From IMG/VR virus record IMGVR_UViG_3300038427_000024, positions 1 through 42,953 of that record: a DNA stretch of 42,953 bases. One strand, written 5' to 3'. The first letter of the stretch is position 1; every line of letters begins with the position of its first letter. This stretch comes from a virus. Both the position numbers and the translations under genes were made by a program. This document shows positions 1,201 to 42,953 of the stretch, piece after piece. The notes beneath the pieces were generated by a model. That model was not told where the DNA came from and did not search any database. It was given only the letters and a program-made list of their open reading frames with translations.

Positions 1201-4200
1201 TGTCCGACCTTTCCTTCCCTGAGAACACCAACGCCCCGGCGCTTCCAGGAATCGAACCACTTCCTCCTGATCCCGCTGAGGCGAGACAGGACATTCTCAA
1301 TGTGTCCCCTGATCCGCAGACGGAAGATGCGAAGATGGATCTCTCGAAGTACCTCGCCGAAAAAACGGGGATGTCCCCGGTGTTCATTCACCAGAACTTC
1401 GACTCGGTGGCGGACCAGTTCTACGGGAAGAAGACGCCGAATGCGGTTGAACGGCTCGGCAACACGATCAAGACGGAACAGGTTGGAAGGCAGATTGCCA
1501 AGTTATCCGCTCGACAGGCATTCGGGGATACCTCACCCGAGACGCAAGTGGCGATAGACGAACAGAAAAAATTACTTCCCGACCCTGAGACGACCATCAA
1601 GGGTCTTCCTGGTGACCTTATCAAGCAAATCTACTCCTTCGGTTTTGAACTTCCCAAAGAGGCTTACACCGGCGCTCTCACCGATCCCAAGGCATCGACC
1701 GTTGACAAGGTTGTGGCGGGGATTGCTTCCGTTCTCGCCCTCTCACCCGTTGGCGTCGTTCCGATCCAGGGCGGCAGGATCATCAAGGACATGAACGAGC
1801 AGGCCATCGGAGCCAGTTACCGAGCCTCGATTGACGCAGGAATGGATCCCACGGTCGCGCGTGTGCAAGCGGGGGTATCGGCACTCATCTTTGACGCCAT
1901 GAACACGTTGCAGATCGGGGCGGCGGCCGGCGCAGGAGAAAGGATCGCGGGGACCGCGATTGCAAAGGCCCTGTTGAGCAAATCCGTAGTCCGGCTCGGC
2001 TTGGAAGCCACCCAGCAGGAGGCACTCGCCTACGGCATGACCCTCGCCAACAAAGCCGTGAATGAGGCGGCGGTCGAGGCGAGCAACCAGTGGGCCGGGA
2101 CCAATCTTCCACACGAACAATTTTTGAACATGCTGAAAGAGGCGGGGATCGAAGCGCAACCGATGGCGATCATGGGAACCATGATAGCCGGGGCGAGCAC
2201 CGTGGGAGGAGCATACCGCATCGCCAAGGATTCGGCACTTGAAACGCAGGTGCGAGACACGGTGCGGAACATTGTGACACCCACCACGAAACCCCTGGAG
2301 ACGGTCCCCATCGAACCGCCCCGGCCCGAAATGACCGTCGAGCAGAAACAGACGATCTACGACCAGCGTATGGCACAGGCTCGGGCGCGTGTGGAGGAGA
2401 TCAAGGCGCGGCTGGCCACGGCAAAACCAGAGGAACGTCTTGCACTCGAAGCCGATCTTGCCGACTTGAATAAGACACTTCTGACTACCTTTGGCGAAAT
2501 GCCCGTGACTTGGTTCTCCGAAAAACCCGGTGACCAGAACGTCGGGGATGTACTGCACTCGGAAGACTTCCAGCTCGAACAACCGAAAGAGACGCCGGCG
2601 GTTCCCAAACCCGCGCCAGCGGTGCAGGAGAAGTTTGGTTTCGCAGAAATGACGCCCGGGCAAGTCAAGGATGAAGCGCAGCAGATGCGCATGTTCGAGG
2701 CACCCACGAAAAACGCATGGGATATGACGGGTTCCGAACTCGGAATAATCTATCATGCCGGTACAAAGAAAATTGAATCCGTGGATCTCTCGAAAACACA
2801 ACAACGGGACTATGGATTCTACGGCAAGGGGTTTTATGGAGCTACCAAACCCGAATATGCAAAGGGGTATGGGAACACGGTAAGTGAAATCAAACTTAAT
2901 CCCGAAGCGAAAGTCCTGAATGCATCTCTGAAACCCGAGAAGGCACCCGCAGGTCTTGTCGATGCCGTGGCATCAGATTACTACGATCGTGCGATTGAAG
3001 GAGCGAAGGCGCGCGGAAAAGAGGCGTTTCTTACCGAAGAAATCAAAGGCATTCGGACCAACCCTCTGGAATGGAAAAATGCTGTTGATTCCTTTGCCCG
3101 GAAACACGGCTATGATGTAGTCAAGTATTCAGATGCGGAAATCGTTCTACTGACCGGACGTGCGACTCAATCGTTCGAGAAACCGAAAACGCCAGAGGAA
3201 GTCATCGCGTATCTGTCGGACAAACCGGCTTCGCAATGGACGAAGGGTAACCAGCCCGACTACTACGACATCCTACATCCGAGCACGCGCGAGGGTGGGG
3301 GATGGCAGATTACCAACTTCGAGAGGGCCACCAACGAACCCACCGGCCACATGGACTACGCCACGAAGGAAGAGGCTATTCGTGACATGGTGGGGGCCGG
3401 GTGGGGACTCGCCGATGTCGCCAAGGAAGTACAGGCGTCCATCGTTGCACCTGAGACGGCCCCCCGCGAGCCGCTTCCTGCGGTGACGCAATTCGACCCC
3501 AACAAGATCCCGGTTCAAGAAGTCCCTCTCGACAAGATCACAATCTCCAAGGATGTCCCCAACTTCAAGGAAGGGGCGAATGCGCAGGGCATCATTGAAC
3601 CCCTGGCAGGCAAGCAGTACGAACGCCTCGGGACGGCCCCCATCGTGGTGTGGGAACGGACCGACGGTCGGATGGAAGTCATCACAGGTAGACACCGCTA
3701 CGATCTTGCGGTACGCTCAGGAGAGAAGACGATCCCCGCCCAGGTAGTACGCGAGGCGGACGGTTTCACGGCGGTCCAGGCGGCCACGTTCGATGCAGAG
3801 TCGAACATCCGTGATGGACAAGGAAGTGTAAAAGACTATGCGGCCTACTTCAAAGCCAACCAAGTCACAGAACAAGAAGCATCCAGCCGAGGACTTCTGG
3901 CGCGCGACAAAGGACGAAAGGGCTTCGCAATTGGCCAGTATGCCTCCGATGGTCTCTATACCCTCTATCGAAACGATCAGATTGGCGAAGGAAAAGCCGC
4001 AGCAATAGCGGCGGCAGCTCCCCGCGACGAGGGCCTGCAAAATGCGGGAATCCAGCGCGCGAAGGAACTGACCGCCGACGAACTCTCCAACTACGTCAAC
4101 ATCCTAAAAATCCAGTCCACGACATCGGGTGTCAATCTCGACCTGTTCGGCCGTGACGACACCGTGATGGTCGAGGCCGCGGCAGTCGCCAAGGAAGCCT

Positions 4201-7200
4201 CCCGCAAGATGGCGGGGCTCCGGGACGAGAATGCGGCTCTCAAGTCGGCTCTCCGCCTATCCACCAAAGAACGGGCGGCGCTTGTTGAGAAATATGGATT
4301 CAAGACGGGCGACCGTGCGGCGGTCGAGACACGGATCGGCGAACTCGAGCAACAGATCGCGGACTGGTCGAACTGGTACACGGATTCGGCCAAAGTGCGG
4401 GAGTTGCGCCAGCAGGCGGGATTGTCTGCGGAAGCGGCACCTATAACGAGAACGTTGGAGACAGCGACTACCGCACCCGAGAAGGCTCCCGTCAAGACTG
4501 CCGCGAAGGCCGAGACACCCGAGTTGCCCCCGATCAAACCTTTTGTGCCGGAAGCCGTGAGGCCTGCGGGCAACGAACCCATGACCGCTTCAGACTTCGA
4601 GAACTTCCTCATCCACGACCCGAGCTATGACCGGGCCGTGGCGGAAGTAAGAAGAGTGGAAGAGCAGATTCGCACCAAGGCGGGAAGCATCGAGGATCTG
4701 AACGCCGAACTGAAATCGGCAACGGACCGGGCGAATCAGGTTGCGGATGCCGTCAAGCAGGATTGGCAACACCGCATCGCTGTCAACCGTGCCAGGAGCG
4801 ATGCTCGGAAGTCAGTCAACAGAATGATCCAGGATATCGCCGGCATACAGACCAAGGGTGTGCGGATGCCCGACGAGTACCGAAAGGCCATCGAGGAAGT
4901 CAAGGATGCATTCGCCACGGTTCGGCACACTCAGAAAACGCTCGGTCATTTGAAGGACATTGCGGCCGCACTTGAAAAAGATCCCTACTTCCCCGTGAAC
5001 AAGGAGGACCGGGCCAGACTTGCCGATCTTGGCAAGACGCCGCTTCGGGATTTGTCGGTGGACGATCTGCGCACAATCCACGATGCGGTGATGATGTACG
5101 CGAAATTGGCGCAGACAGCGAACAAGGCTACTTTGCGCGGGCAGGTGGTGGACCGTGATGTTGCCGTGAAGACGATCACGGCTGAAATGCGCCCGACAAA
5201 GGGCATCGACGAGAACATACAGTCCAGCATCCCGACCATGGCCGGTGAGTTTGAGAAGTCAAGGATAAAGGCCGCAACGTTCCTCAAGGACTTGGTGAAC
5301 GACCCCGACATTGCGATCAATTCCGCATTCGGTGGGGAGCAGTCCAACGGCTATGAAATGTTCCAAGGCAAGATACTTGCCAATGAGGAAGTGAAGGCAA
5401 AGTACAACGCCGAGTATCGAAAACCTCTGGACGACTTCGCTGCCAAGCACAACCTGAACTTGGACAGGTGGCGATTGGAACCGAAGTCTTTCGACCTCGG
5501 AGGCGGTAGGAGTGTGAAACTCACCCGCGACGAAGTGCTGGAAATGTGGCAACACGCACAGAGACCGGACAACCTGGCCGATCTTCAGGCCGGGTACGGC
5601 ACGGTCAACGGCGATCATCCCTATCACAAGTACACCCTCAAGCCCGAGGAAATCCAACAGATCATTTCTGGATTGGACCCGAAGGAGAAGGAACTCCTTG
5701 GCATCCTCGCCAGCGAGTACAAAATGCGCGGGCAAGAAGCGGACTCGGTTTCCTATGATGTGAACGGTGCACATTTGGAACTCCTCGCGGACTATGTGCC
5801 CATAACACTTTTGCCCGGCAACCGCGGGGAACCCATCGAGTTCGAGCTCGCGAAAAAGGAATATGCCAACAGACTCACCCGCGCGGGAGTGGACAAGGGC
5901 CACATGCAGGAACGCACGGGGTTTGTCGGACCCCTGATGATCCGGGGCGCCGTGGATGCCTACTTGCGGCACGCCGATAACATCGCAACCTACCGATCGA
6001 TGGAGAAGGACATCCGCAACGCCGGGCGCGTGTTGTACTCCAAGGATTTCCAGGACCAGGTGCGGGCGAGAAGTGGAGGGGACTGGCTTCTCTCGGTGAT
6101 GGACCGCAACCTCAAGGATGCGGCGGGAATGAAGGAACCGAACCGGGGCGCGGCCAAAATGGTGATGGATCTCCGGCGTAAGGCCATGACCGCCATTCTA
6201 TTCGGACGCCTGCAGACCGCCGTGATCAACTCGGTACTACAGTTCCGGGGCATGATCTATGCGGGATTCGGACACGGCCTCACGGGAATCGCCGAAAATC
6301 TATTCAACCCCAAGGGTGTCCATGATCTTCTGATGGCGGTCAACCCCTACTACCACGAGAGAAGTACCAGAGGTTTCACGCGCGAGCAATCCGACATCTT
6401 CGCATCGACGACTCCCCAAAAGATACTCGGCAAGGTGGGCCGGGCAGGGGCGCTTCCGACGAGAATATTGACCCAATGGGCCATCGCGGGGGAGATGAAA
6501 GGCGCGTACAACCGAGCCATGGCAGAGATCAAAGCCCTGCGCACACGGGATACGCCCCTTTCTGCCAGCGTTGGGTTGGCGATGCGGGATGAGACGGGGA
6601 ATATCTTGACCGCCGACCAGATCAAGGCGATGCCCGCAGAGAAGTTGCCATTTCTGGCATCCAAGTTCGGCACATACTCGGTCGAACGTACGCACGCATC
6701 GAGTCTGCCCGAGATGCAGGCGATTCTTTCCAAGAATCCCGTGGGGGCACAACTCACCACGTTTCAATCCGAGTTTCATGCCGCCCTTTCCGCTGTCCGC
6801 CGTTCGTTCATGGAGGCGAAATACACGCCGAACGGATGGTGGAAGGCACTCCGTACCGTGGCGATCCTCGGCGCTTTGGAACCGACGGCGATATGGGGGG
6901 CGCGGACTTTGTTTGCGAAGTTGCTCGCCAAGCGTGACCCGAAATGGACCGACGAAATGATCACTCAGGCCATCGGCGGGTTGCCCGTGGCGCGTGATGT
7001 CGTTGGCTCGGGACTTCGTATGATCGAATACGGTCCTTCATCCCCGGCCGCTGACGCCAACACCTTCTTTCTGGACAAGTACGTGGGGGATGCTGGCAGG
7101 AATGTCTATCTCATGGACCGTGCGTTTACGGCGGCCAGTCAGGACTCCCGCCGGAAAGCGGCGTGGAAGATGGTGGACAACATGGCCAACACCACCATCA

Positions 7201-7298
7201 GCCTGACGACCGGCGTGAGTTATCAGGCCATGCGCGATCTTGTGGTGGGAGTTTACAAAACCTTGAGCGGTACTGGCCCAACGGTGAAGAAGGAGTAA
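1200..7298 (+). CDS. Giant polyvalent internal virion protein with ART-like and ParB-like domains
   Basis: The protein has 2032 residues, counted from the ATG at 1200, which overlaps the previous stop and has GTGGAG just upstream; an in-frame ATG at 1152 lies inside the previous gene and is less likely. Its position matches T7 gp16 (1318 residues), but I see no lytic transglycosylase domain. N-terminal residues about 165-360 are Ala/Gly-rich and hydrophobic. Residues about 515-660 look like an ADP-ribosyltransferase fold: H519 in a YHAGT motif, GKGFYGATKPEYAKGYG at 542-558, and YSDAEIVLL near 643-651. Residues about 770-900 look ParB-like, with GRHRYDLAVRSG near 830 and a following NIRDGQGS motif. 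Long helical or coiled-coil regions follow, and residues about 1660-1935 are hydrophobic, as in ejection proteins. It is probably packaged in the virion and injected with the DNA. The domain calls follow the known polyvalent-protein theme; the activities are inferred. Confidence 0.82.
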   Translation: MSDLSFPENTNAPALPGIEPLPPDPAEARQDILNVSPDPQTEDAKMDLSKYLAEKTGMSPVFIHQNFDSVADQFYGKKTPNAVERLGNTIKTEQVGRQIAKLSARQAFGDTSPETQVAIDEQKKLLPDPETTIKGLPGDLIKQIYSFGFELPKEAYTGALTDPKASTVDKVVAGIASVLALSPVGVVPIQGGRIIKDMNEQAIGASYRASIDAGMDPTVARVQAGVSALIFDAMNTLQIGAAAGAGERIAGTAIAKALLSKSVVRLGLEATQQEALAYGMTLANKAVNEAAVEASNQWAGTNLPHEQFLNMLKEAGIEAQPMAIMGTMIAGASTVGGAYRIAKDSALETQVRDTVRNIVTPTTKPLETVPIEPPRPEMTVEQKQTIYDQRMAQARARVEEIKARLATAKPEERLALEADLADLNKTLLTTFGEMPVTWFSEKPGDQNVGDVLHSEDFQLEQPKETPAVPKPAPAVQEKFGFAEMTPGQVKDEAQQMRMFEAPTKNAWDMTGSELGIIYHAGTKKIESVDLSKTQQRDYGFYGKGFYGATKPEYAKGYGNTVSEIKLNPEAKVLNASLKPEKAPAGLVDAVASDYYDRAIEGAKARGKEAFLTEEIKGIRTNPLEWKNAVDSFARKHGYDVVKYSDAEIVLLTGRATQSFEKPKTPEEVIAYLSDKPASQWTKGNQPDYYDILHPSTREGGGWQITNFERATNEPTGHMDYATKEEAIRDMVGAGWGLADVAKEVQASIVAPETAPREPLPAVTQFDPNKIPVQEVPLDKITISKDVPNFKEGANAQGIIEPLAGKQYERLGTAPIVVWERTDGRMEVITGRHRYDLAVRSGEKTIPAQVVREADGFTAVQAATFDAESNIRDGQGSVKDYAAYFKANQVTEQEASSRGLLARDKGRKGFAIGQYASDGLYTLYRNDQIGEGKAAAIAAAAPRDEGLQNAGIQRAKELTADELSNYVNILKIQSTTSGVNLDLFGRDDTVMVEAAAVAKEASRKMAGLRDENAALKSALRLSTKERAALVEKYGFKTGDRAAVETRIGELEQQIADWSNWYTDSAKVRELRQQAGLSAEAAPITRTLETATTAPEKAPVKTAAKAETPELPPIKPFVPEAVRPAGNEPMTASDFENFLIHDPSYDRAVAEVRRVEEQIRTKAGSIEDLNAELKSATDRANQVADAVKQDWQHRIAVNRARSDARKSVNRMIQDIAGIQTKGVRMPDEYRKAIEEVKDAFATVRHTQKTLGHLKDIAAALEKDPYFPVNKEDRARLADLGKTPLRDLSVDDLRTIHDAVMMYAKLAQTANKATLRGQVVDRDVAVKTITAEMRPTKGIDENIQSSIPTMAGEFEKSRIKAATFLKDLVNDPDIAINSAFGGEQSNGYEMFQGKILANEEVKAKYNAEYRKPLDDFAAKHNLNLDRWRLEPKSFDLGGGRSVKLTRDEVLEMWQHAQRPDNLADLQAGYGTVNGDHPYHKYTLKPEEIQQIISGLDPKEKELLGILASEYKMRGQEADSVSYDVNGAHLELLADYVPITLLPGNRGEPIEFELAKKEYANRLTRAGVDKGHMQERTGFVGPLMIRGAVDAYLRHADNIATYRSMEKDIRNAGRVLYSKDFQDQVRARSGGDWLLSVMDRNLKDAAGMKEPNRGAAKMVMDLRRKAMTAILFGRLQTAVINSVLQFRGMIYAGFGHGLTGIAENLFNPKGVHDLLMAVNPYYHERSTRGFTREQSDIFASTTPQKILGKVGRAGALPTRILTQWAIAGEMKGAYNRAMAEIKALRTRDTPLSASVGLAMRDETGNILTADQIKAMPAEKLPFLASKFGTYSVERTHASSLPEMQAILSKNPVGAQLTTFQSEFHAALSAVRRSFMEAKYTPNGWWKALRTVAILGALEPTAIWGARTLFAKLLAKRDPKWTDEMITQAIGGLPVARDVVGSGLRMIEYGPSSPAADANTFFLDKYVGDAGRNVYLMDRAFTAASQDSRRKAAWKMVDNMANTTISLTTGVSYQAMRDLVVGVYKTLSGTGPTVKKE

Positions 7299-11059: not shown

Positions 11060-11461
11060 TTATGGCGATTCCGAAGTAATGTCATGCCAACGTAGTATGA
11101 GGGCTAGAAATGCTTGGGTGAGAACTGCGTCTTTGTGATAAGTGAAATAGTCATCCATAAAGTTCATGCCATATTTGAAGAAAGGCCAATTGTCCGTTGC
11201 CTTCGGCATAAATGTCAGATAGTCATGGACGGCGACAATCAGTTCTGGTGAGGAGTGGCGATCAAGATACTCTCCCATCTTTCCCTTACCCGTGATTGTT
11301 ATCCCAACGCAGAAACCTTGATGAAGTGCTATAAGAGTATGCAGTTTTTCATCGACCGGCCAATTTGTGTCCCATAAAGAACTCGGGGCAGGGGATTGCG
11401 CCGTTGCCATGAGTGGGCCGAGAAGGATTACGACCAAGAAAAGAACGATCACCTTCTTCAT
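11060..11461 (-). CDS. Leftward secreted protein of unknown function
   Basis: The protein has 133 residues and is one of only two minus-strand genes supported here. A classical signal peptide (KKVIVLFLVVILLGPLMATA) is followed by QSPAPSS, so the product is exported. The mature part has W, H and Y clusters (KATDNWPFFKYGMNFMDDY) and one Cys (HQGFCVGI). GAGG lies seven bases before the start on the minus strand. A leftward promoter with 17-bp spacing sits at 11482-11510. The base composition is more AT-rich than the surrounding operon. Independent expression and export suggest a moron or superinfection-exclusion type gene. The family is not recognised. Confidence 0.65.
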   Translation of the reverse strand: MKKVIVLFLVVILLGPLMATAQSPAPSSLWDTNWPVDEKLHTLIALHQGFCVGITITGKGKMGEYLDRHSSPELIVAVHDYLTFMPKATDNWPFFKYGMNFMDDYFTYHKDAVLTQAFLALILRWHDITSESP

Positions 11462-11481: not shown

Positions 11482-11520
11482 AGAATAGCACTTGACAAGT
11501 GCAAAGACAAGTGATAGTGT
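11482..11520. promoter_or_regulatory. Overlapping divergent promoters with palindromic operator
   Basis: A perfect 15-base palindrome GCACTTGACAAGTGC spans 11488-11502. On the minus strand it fills the spacer of TTGTCT (11510-11505) and TATTCT (11487-11482), exactly 17 bases apart, ahead of the secreted gene at 11060-11461. On the plus strand its TTGACA (11492-11497) serves as a -35 with a weaker TAGTGT at 11515-11520, also 17 bases apart, ahead of the HTH gene. A second ACAAGTG half-site lies 12 bases downstream (11507-11513). A regulator bound to the palindrome would block both directions. Confidence 0.6.
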
Positions 11521-11585: not shown

Positions 11586-12134
11586 GTGCCAGACACAAAT
11601 CCCCCTGAGGACGATAGGTTCCGCAATAGTAGACAGAATATCTACTTGCCCGGAGCAGAAGGACTGTTCTCCCCGCGCGAGGTGGCCCGCATGACCGGAT
11701 ACAAGCCGGTTAGCATCAGATTGATATGTCGGCAACTCCTGATAGGACAAAAAGTTGACGGCCGATTCCTTCTCAATGCCGATGATGTTTCAAAGATTAT
11801 CGGAAGGAAAAATCTTAAACATCATCAGGGAAAGGGGGATTCGGTCAATATGTCAAAAACACCCATTCGTCCGCTCGGTCTTGACCCACTCATCTGGAAG
11901 ATGTTCGACAGCAACAGGTACTACACCGAACAGTTGGAAATCGCTCTGAAAAAGCAAAGCGACCGTTTGTGGGATATGGGAAAGTCCCTTGCTGTGGTAG
12001 CAGGTGATGTTGAGGAACTGCGCAAAAAGGTAGATGTCATCAAAAAGAGGGAGGAGGAAAAGGGGCGGGCGGTGCTGCAACTTGGCAGGAGCGCACCCTC
12101 CACCCTCGTCACCTATGAGGCCGAAGCCGCATAG
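11586..12134 (+). CDS. HTH DNA-binding regulator with C-terminal coiled coil
   Basis: The protein has 182 residues from the GTG at 11586, with GGAGG nine bases upstream. Residues about 27-70 form an excisionase/MerR-like winged helix-turn-helix: LFSPREVARMTGY, then SIRLICRQLLIG and a wing-like DGRFLLNADDVSKII. The C-terminal half is helical and charged (VEELRKKVDVIKKREEEKG), presumably for dimerisation. It is transcribed away from the palindrome at 11488-11502 and could bind it to regulate itself and the leftward secreted gene. Its composition is more AT-rich than the recombination genes to the right, in line with a separately acquired regulatory module. Confidence 0.7.
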   Translation: MPDTNPPEDDRFRNSRQNIYLPGAEGLFSPREVARMTGYKPVSIRLICRQLLIGQKVDGRFLLNADDVSKIIGRKNLKHHQGKGDSVNMSKTPIRPLGLDPLIWKMFDSNRYYTEQLEIALKKQSDRLWDMGKSLAVVAGDVEELRKKVDVIKKREEEKGRAVLQLGRSAPSTLVTYEAEAA

Positions 12135-12174
12135 ACATCAACTTCCTACTATAGAAAGACGCACACGTCAAGCA

Positions 12175-12354
12175 CTACTTCCTTGCCCTGTCCTTTATCT
12201 CTATCTGAGGCCGATTCCAGTATCTCGTGAGGATCAATTCGATTACGGCTGTGCGGTCGGGGCCGAGTTCCCCGATACGGGAGTCCACATTCTGCACGAG
12301 TGGAATCGGGAGCCAGAGATGCACAGCTTGGCGCCCCTCCCGCTTCCTGCTCAC
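12175..12354 (-). CDS. Ribbon-helix-helix repressor candidate, probably leaderless
   Basis: The protein has 59 residues on the minus strand from the GTG at 12354. Residues about 9-50 fit the RHH (Arc/CopG) pattern well: a strand QAVHLWLPIPLVQ, helix NVDSRIGELG, turn GPDRT and helix AVIELILTRYW, with the usual LP at the strand end. A basic tail (IEIKDRARK) follows. No ribosome site precedes the GTG. Instead a -10/-35 pair is placed so that transcription should begin at the GTG itself. It runs opposite to the RHH gene at 12474-12629. The most likely role is repressor of the rightward promoter at 12415-12444. The in-frame TTG at 12405 would lie upstream of this -10. Confidence 0.62.
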   Translation of the reverse strand: MSRKREGRQAVHLWLPIPLVQNVDSRIGELGPDRTAVIELILTRYWNRPQIEIKDRARK

Positions 12355-12360
12355 AGGCCA

Positions 12361-12389
12361 AAGATAGCACAAAGTATGTCCATATGCAA
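12361..12389 (-). promoter_or_regulatory. Leftward sigma70-like promoter for leaderless mRNA
   Basis: On the minus strand TTGCAT (12389-12384) is followed after exactly 17 bases by TATCTT (12366-12361). Six bases separate the end of the -10 from the GTG at 12354, so +1 would be the first base of that start codon. The -35 match is only moderate. Confidence 0.5.
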
Positions 12390-12390
12390 C

Positions 12391-12444
12391 ACAAAAAAAA
12401 CACAAAAAAAACTCTTGACAACGTGGCTAAGGTGTGGCTATACT
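12391..12444 (+). promoter_or_regulatory. Strong rightward promoter with A-tracts and direct repeats
   Basis: TTGACA (12415-12420) and TATACT (12439-12444) are separated by 18 bases. Two phased A8/A8-9 tracts at about 12393-12411 resemble an UP element. GTGGCTA occurs twice, at 12423-12429 and 12434-12440, one helical turn (11 bases) apart and between the -35 and -10. That layout is typical of RHH repressor operators. The promoter lies directly ahead of the gene at 12474 and would drive the long rightward operon. Confidence 0.72.
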
Positions 12445-12473
12445 TTCGCCATGCTACGAGAAGGAGGGGAACT

Positions 12474-12629
12474 GTGAAGAAGCAGAAGGTCATGCGGATG
12501 AACATCCCGTTTGATCCAGACGTTTACCGGGCGCTCCGGAAGGCGAAAGAGGCCAACGAGGGCGAGTCCATGGTGCGCCTCATCAACCTGGCGATCCGCG
12601 AGAAGTATGGCCTTGTGAAGGAGGGCTGA
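12474..12629 (+). CDS. Small ribbon-helix-helix protein, first rightward gene
   Basis: The protein has 51 residues from the GTG at 12474, preceded by AAGGAGGGG. Basic N-terminus KKQKVMRMN, strand-like MRMNIPFDPDVY, helix RALRKAKEANEG, turn ESMV and helix RLINLAIREKYGL fit an RHH DNA-binding fold. As the first product from the strong promoter at 12415-12444, it may act as a Cro-like partner opposing the leftward RHH protein at 12175-12354, or as a general early regulator. The opposing roles are inferred from position alone. Confidence 0.65.
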   Translation: MKKQKVMRMNIPFDPDVYRALRKAKEANEGESMVRLINLAIREKYGLVKEG

Positions 12630-42244: not shown

Positions 42245-42953
42245 TGGGTATCATCAACCTTCCCACCTACGAGGCAAAGGAAGTCGAGAAGCCGGCCCCC
42301 AACCAGCCGAACCCTTCCTTCCAGGGTCTCGCTGCCCTCCAGAACGCGCAGAAAAACTTCTATTCCACCCTCTTCGACGGGGCGGTTCAACTCGCAGACT
42401 CCACCATCACGAAGATCGAGAACGACCAGTACAGCGCGAAGATGAAGCAGATCTCCGACGGGGACACCACGGACCTGCGCAACATCGAGGAGAAGCCGAT
42501 CACCTCCCGGGATCCCCGGATGAACGATGTTCCCGACAGTATGAAGGCCACTCCGAACCTCTGGCTCTTCCAGCAACAGCGCCAGGCGCGGATCGACACG
42601 GTGATGAAAGATGTGCAGATCCCAAAGGTGAGGCAGGCCCTCCAGGCTTGGTCCGATGAAAGAGCGATCGCGCAGAAGGACAGTCTGGCGAGGTTCGACT
42701 TTGCGAAGGCGAAAGAGGTCAGGGCCGACAACCTCACCAGCGATGTATCAAGTGCGATCGAGCAGGGAAACATCGGCCAGGTCGATGACCTCCTTCAGGC
42801 GGCAACCCTGGACGGCACGATTTCCGAGGCGAAACAGAATGAGTACGGCGATCTCGCGCGCAAGGACATCACCAAGCAAAATATTCAAATGCACGTTGCG
42901 GGAATGGACGAACTCACCGGGCGCCAGTTCCTTGTCAATCCCGAGAACTTCAA
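42244..42953 (+). CDS. Internal virion protein (T7 gp15-like position), N-terminal part
   Basis: This is the 5' part of the gene continued at 1-1200. The ATG at 42244 overlaps the previous stop. The protein starts MGIINLPTYEAKEVEKPAPN and is helical, Gln/Asp/Lys-rich (LWLFQQQRQARIDTVMKDV), with no membrane segment. Bases 42823-42953 repeat 1-131; unique sequence up to 42822 encodes residues 1-193. The full product of about 592 residues is presumably ejected with the genome to build the periplasmic DNA conduit. The terminal mismatch changes Leu to Phe at residue 236. Confidence 0.75.
   Translation, partial: MGIINLPTYEAKEVEKPAPNQPNPSFQGLAALQNAQKNFYSTLFDGAVQLADSTITKIENDQYSAKMKQISDGDTTDLRNIEEKPITSRDPRMNDVPDSMKATPNLWLFQQQRQARIDTVMKDVQIPKVRQALQAWSDERAIAQKDSLARFDFAKAKEVRADNLTSDVSSAIEQGNIGQVDDLLQAATLDGTISEAKQNEYGDLARKDITKQNIQMHVAGMDELTGRQFLVNPENF
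42823..42953. repeat. Right copy of 131-bp terminal direct repeat
   Basis: Identical to 1-131 except T at 42949 in place of C at 127. See the left copy for interpretation. Confidence 0.95.

Follow-up and report, generated by a model that had tools for sequence, protein, structure and literature searches.

We describe here a small regulatory region in the 42,953-base genome of an uncultured podovirus-type phage (the whole stretch of DNA that was analysed, called the window below), in which two short genes of ribbon-helix-helix (RHH) character, RHH1 and RHH2, are read in opposite directions from back-to-back promoters. On balance, we favour the reading that RHH1, translated from a leaderless mRNA, is autoregulated and represses the rightward early promoter, and that the module derives from the switch of a temperate phage. 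It is from the anatomy of the region that we infer the action of RHH1, namely its operator, repression, control of its own expression and any part in lysogeny.

Promoters, start codons and proteins of the window

The window record is probably complete: its ends (1-131 and 42823-42953) are identical except for one mismatch and the record of a sister phage spans its end-to-start join, which together make completeness very probable; it is classed linear. Genes were called with a codon-score script of our own, not a published gene finder, giving 62 predicted genes, and all the genes that it called in the window are rightward. Two leftward frames, RHH1 and that of a 133-aa protein, the only other leftward gene called, were added by hand with weak codon scores (the 4.6 of RHH1 being mildly positive). 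The features of the region are collected in Table 1.

Table 1. Features of the switch region and of its left flank (window coordinates).
Feature	Position	Strand	Remark
133-aa protein, signal-peptide-like N-terminus	11060..11461	-	codon score 1.2; SD -6.6 kcal/mol
182-aa protein, HTH-like N-terminal by eye	11586..12134	+	convergent with RHH1; no family match
RHH1, RHH-like, 59 aa, GTG start, proposed leaderless repressor	12178..12354	-	direct reading
Leftward promoter TTGCAT-17-TATCTT, extended -10, +1 on G12354	12361..12389	-	direct reading
Candidate left operator AAAGTATGTCCA	12371..12382	+	imperfect inverted match to 12435-12446, 10/12 pairs
Two A8 tracts 11 bp apart, UP-like element of rightward promoter	12393..12411	+	direct reading
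Rightward promoter TTGACA-18-TATACT	12415..12444	+	11/12 consensus match
Proposed operator GTGGCTA-N4-GTGGCTA	12423..12440	+	repeats at 12423-12429, 12434-12440
8-codon frame ATGCTACGAGAAGGAGGGGAACTG-TGA, possible leaderless leader peptide	12451..12477	+	direct reading
RHH2, Arc-like, 51 aa, strong ribosome site AAGGAGG, GTG start	12474..12629	+	direct reading

Direct reading of the minus strand bears out the 59-residue frame from the GTG at 12354 (12354-12178) that had been proposed in a sequence-only reading of this DNA. Ahead of it, TTGCAT (12389-12384), a 17-bp spacer and TATCTT (12366-12361) are followed by TGGCCT and the G of the GTG, G12354 lying six bases past the -10. The leftward promoter of that earlier reading therefore holds in its coordinates, spacing and +1, but its -35 is weak. 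TTGCAT matches 3/6 consensus positions, and the extended -10 TGC-TATCTT (TG at 12369-12368) is the better promoter element, judged by a consensus that assumes an ordinary sigma-70-like factor in the host. The minus strand of the genome has a single extended -10 with at least 4/6 matches and an ATG or GTG 5-7 nt downstream, exactly at RHH1; shuffles yield 0.66 such pairs per genome strand, or about 5e-4 per start codon, a figure uncorrected for the RHH1 start having been picked first. The absence of a ribosome site was also confirmed: ahead of RHH1 the pairing with anti-SD amounts to -0.9 kcal/mol, where the median of the 62 predicted genes is -8.3, and is nearly the weakest in the genome. Only 1/62 genes has a weaker one, and the start of that gene is doubtful. 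Apparently, the RHH1 mRNA starts right at its own start codon.

The facing promoter is strong, as had been claimed. TTGACA (12415-12420) and TATACT (12439-12444) form the best-scoring promoter of the region, with the two A8 tracts ahead of it. Two GTGGCTA repeats 11 bp apart do lie in its spacer, except that the second overlaps the first two -10 bases. Genome-wide, the paired motif has a single mismatch-free copy, and allowing up to 3 mismatches 4 copies are found where 1.81 are expected. As a left operator, AAAGTATGTCCA is suggestive only and not significant alone.

A second RHH gene does stand behind this promoter. RHH2 matches phrog_3180 (Arc-like repressor) with E 0.0095, its sole link to Arc, and may be Cro-like, Arc-like or something else in its role. 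It leads into the early operon of ERF recombination and DnaD-type replication genes; the next gene called after RHH2 is the ERF gene (13268). The ATG of the 8-codon frame falls on the predicted rightward +1 and its TGA overlaps the GTG of RHH2. Both its ATG and its stop are kept in the sister, within a diverged stretch, and the frame may be a product of chance. That both promoters would fire on start codons, with this leaderless frame spanning the RHH2 ribosome site and gating RHH2, we regard as distinctly unlikely.

The RHH pattern of RHH1 is weakly backed by the tools. By eye, the protein reads VHLWLP, a helix, and then LGPDRTAVIELILTRYW, as in the RHH pattern. Residues 3-43 match the NCBIfam BrnA antitoxin, an RHH family, with E 0.0053, far under the curated cutoff (no family match of RHH1 exceeds any such cutoff), while nine shuffled copies and one reversed copy gave zero matches at E up to 1. 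Single-sequence monomer models place two helices where they should be in each protein, at 17-27 and 31-45 in RHH1 (low confidence, pLDDT 55) and at 15-27 and 33-45 in RHH2 (pLDDT 76), with low to moderate confidence overall; RHH strands form only in dimers. Foldseek searches of both models against the PDB returned no significant match; the one ranked first for RHH1 was an Arc mutant with E 4.6, meaningless alone. In a five-row alignment addressing the Mnt/Arc relationship, RHH1 shares 8 to 18 percent identity with the others, and family searches with RHH1 and RHH2 gave no HTH repressor match. We infer an RHH fold for RHH1 from these signs.

An integrase is not visible in the window, in agreement with the sequence-only reading: tyrosine (PF00589) and serine (PF00239) integrases are absent, and the Pfam scan of the 62 genes contains none. 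The same scan recognised no partition gene and, among its matches, no antirepressor (ant) family, the PHROGs matches listed being 25 of 43. A tRNA-like attP was sought in the window and not found. Two further observations concern the left part of the genome. A 1,998-aa protein (1302-7298) has weak DUF3990, ParB_N and ART-PolyVal matches, as in polyvalent proteins. Also, the palindrome GCACTTG-A-CAAGTGC and the repeated GACAAGTG lie at 11486-11516, within the likely promoter of the 133-aa gene (TTGTCT-17-TATTCT), and a related site is found at positions 4799-4833 of the sister record.

A sister and a distant cousin of the module

The only close relative of the switch that we found is IMGVR 3300041418_000023 (the sister, 23.7 kb). 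Searches with RHH1 and RHH2 returned one sister only in IMG/VR and no credible match in INPHARED phages. ERF, terminase and tail proteins gave the sister or nothing in IMG/VR, and tail and ERF proteins gave no confirmed relative among genome contigs. When RHH1, RHH2 and ERF were searched in seven further records, only the ERF of the cousin described below matched. The module is absent from the annotation of two related podoviruses, BcepC6B, in which a CI-like regulator and an integrase are annotated, and LS06-2018-MD07, whose listed genes are all on one strand.

For the most part, the genome shared by sister and window is almost 100 percent identical; in tail genes at 38.0-39.0 kb identity falls slightly, to about 97-98 percent. 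Around the switch, identity is 71-94 percent at 10.25-11.03 kb (250-base bins), the window's 11.03-12.31 kb is mostly without counterpart in the sister, whose record lacks the 182-aa gene, and 12.31-12.46 kb is divergent. Recombination may be the source of the diverged sister block. The window carries ATCGGGAG at both edges and the sister GGGAG, which suggests that a deletion may have occurred in the sister's lineage.

As far as its record shows, the sister lacks a full RHH1. The first 15 codons of the frame are kept, with two synonymous changes (AAG/AAA and CAA/CAG) and the substitutions A10H and W14F, whereas past codon 15-16 the frame has other sequence and continues into a leftward membrane-protein frame, so that conservation of the 59 residues holds for the first part and fails for the remainder. 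Similarly, the position of the GTG is kept but the codon is ATG, and one base inserted between -10 and start leaves it still at +1/+2. Because this indel shifts the frame ahead of the start yet leaves the start and subsequent codons in place, we take the RHH1 start codon to be real and correctly placed in the earlier reading. Both hexamers of the leftward promoter are unchanged, and the block formed by this promoter and the A-tracts is 55/60 identical, with one A deleted from the tracts. In the rightward promoter, the spacer is 10/18 identical and 12445-12462 is 11/18 identical; from 12463 on all is identical, and RHH2 is unchanged.

Conservation of the GTGGCTA repeats among relatives, which the earlier reading had put forward as a check, is therefore not observed: the repeats are changed in the sister, whose RHH2 is identical, and for this reason they are more likely a target of RHH1 than of RHH2. 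In an alignment with Arc, A10 and W14 of RHH1 stand opposite Q9 and R13, two of the three Arc residues that contact operator bases. The chance that two random changes among 15 residues both hit three contact positions is about 3 percent (3/105), for an argument made of two substitutions in one comparison of one phage pair. Both substitutions fall on presumed contacts, and the spacer is altered where RHH2 is not; taken together, this favours RHH1 over RHH2 as the probable reader of the sites in the right spacer. A second operator family, AAAGTGT, present three times in the sister, is not claimed, as 7.5 percent of shuffled sequences equal it.

The cousin, IMGVR 3300031999_000050 (45.3 kb), was found by a scan with the DnaD-like protein, and it shares with the window 43 percent identity in DnaD, 36 percent in ERF and 24 percent in the portal, with gene order partly in common. 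Its ERF operon is preceded by a leftward gene of 76 aa that matches PF07878 RHH_5 (E 1.2e-7) and an Arc-like family in PHROGs (E 2.7e-4), and whose protein found only itself in IMG/VR and nothing in phages. A tyrosine integrase (PF00589, E 2e-16) lies beside this gene, with ERF and DnaD on the other side. The left flank reads membrane frame, tRNA 3'-half-like stretch, tyrosine integrase. Recognised by eye at about 4200-4400 and scored by neither ARAGORN nor Rfam, the tRNA-like stretch is a likely attP.

TATACT stands seven bases before the ATG of the cousin's RHH gene, and a transcript starting there has no ribosome site: the anti-SD duplex of -5.1 kcal/mol comes from an AAGGG upstream of the -10, and thus outside the transcript. 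By eye we found no usable -35. The leaderless placement of the repressor start, proposed for the window, is thus repeated independently in the sister and in the distant cousin, with distances from -10 to start of 6 nt in the window (TATCTT-GTG), 7 nt in the sister (ATG) and 7 nt in the cousin (TATACT-ATG), a geometry known from the sequences of a small sample of three phages, two of them close. The switch-like position is supported as well, the cousin's gene having a tyrosine integrase on one side and the rightward early/ERF operon on the other. As read from its sequence, the cousin thus appears to have an opposed RHH gene with leaderless placement, in the position of a repressor, in an integrase-bearing phage. 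In contrast, a switch of two RHH proteins holds for the window's opposed pair but is not general: the gene facing the cousin's RHH gene, rightward and of 68 aa, is MazE/AbrB-like (just under the Pfam cutoff) and not RHH.

Proposed mechanism and alternative readings

In the mechanism that we propose, RHH1 dimers would be made from a leaderless mRNA beginning at its own start codon and would bind within the rightward promoter and near it, the best candidate for the sites being the GTGGCTA pair. Binding would block the early operon, that is, RHH2 and then the ERF recombination and DnaD-type replication genes, and occupancy near the leftward promoter would probably lead to autoregulation. The module would descend from a temperate phage's immunity region.

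A different assignment, which we consider unlikely, makes RHH2 the main regulator of the GTGGCTA sites by Arc-like autoregulation, and leaves RHH1 as a gene that is minor or in decay. The evidence for RHH character is better for RHH2, this gene follows immediately on the promoter, like arc in P22, and most of RHH1 is missing in the sister; against this, an identical RHH2 would there face different sites in the altered spacer. That a non-coding or differently started stretch has by chance been read as the RHH1 frame, or as its leaderless start, is in our view very unlikely. The weak codon score, weak -35 and low-confidence model would fit such a reading, but the sister keeps frame and start position, with synonymous changes, despite an indel immediately before them, and the opposed layout is the same in the cousin.

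To an RHH1 that is a BrnA-like antitoxin or its remnant, and not a phage repressor, we give very little credence. The best weak match of RHH1 is indeed to BrnA, and the protein facing the cousin's RHH gene matches MazE; yet no toxin gene adjoins RHH1 on the same strand, PADLOC gave no match, and both position and orientation of RHH1 are those of the cousin's repressor-like gene.

If RHH1 is the leaderless repressor that we favour, a primary phage control switch would be built on RHH proteins and not on lambda-type repressors, and a leaderless repressor message would have been kept across three phages. Window and sister would then be a natural phage pair in which the presumed DNA contacts of a repressor have changed along with its operator and the facing gene has stayed the same, and thus a ready test of operator-specificity divergence.

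Comparison with known phage switches

By composition, the nearest known system is the immI region (mnt/arc) of P22, a secondary region in a phage whose C2 repressor is separate from it. In both, two small RHH genes face each other (the fold being weakly supported for RHH1), and the candidate operator, the GTGGCTA pair, is at the position of the Arc operator, in the spacer of the rightward promoter (Pant in P22), with one helical turn between subsites. Unlike those of the window, which stand back to back, the P22 promoters overlap; mnt has a leader with an SD (-5.9 kcal/mol) where RHH1 has none; and arc leads into ant, whereas RHH2 leads into the ERF/replication operon.

By expression, the nearest is the telomere phage PY54, a divergent repressor pair whose cI and cro mRNAs are leaderless, both starting at AUG as mapped by RACE, and whose cro promoter has an A/T-rich UP-like element (PMC4488713), as the rightward promoter does here. 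CI and Cro of PY54 are lambda-type repressors, whereas those of the window are RHH-like, and in the window only the leftward gene is placed leaderless, the rightward +1 falling on the mini-frame. Lambda cI transcribed from PRM is likewise a leaderless repressor mRNA, with a weak promoter facing a strong early one (PMC4488713), and the predicted leaderless start and weak opposing promoter of RHH1 resemble it, but the repressor fold differs, there is no lambda-type operator set and no integrase was found. The module thus shares features with P22 immI and with the lambda/PY54 switches, fails a defining feature of each, and is a member of neither.
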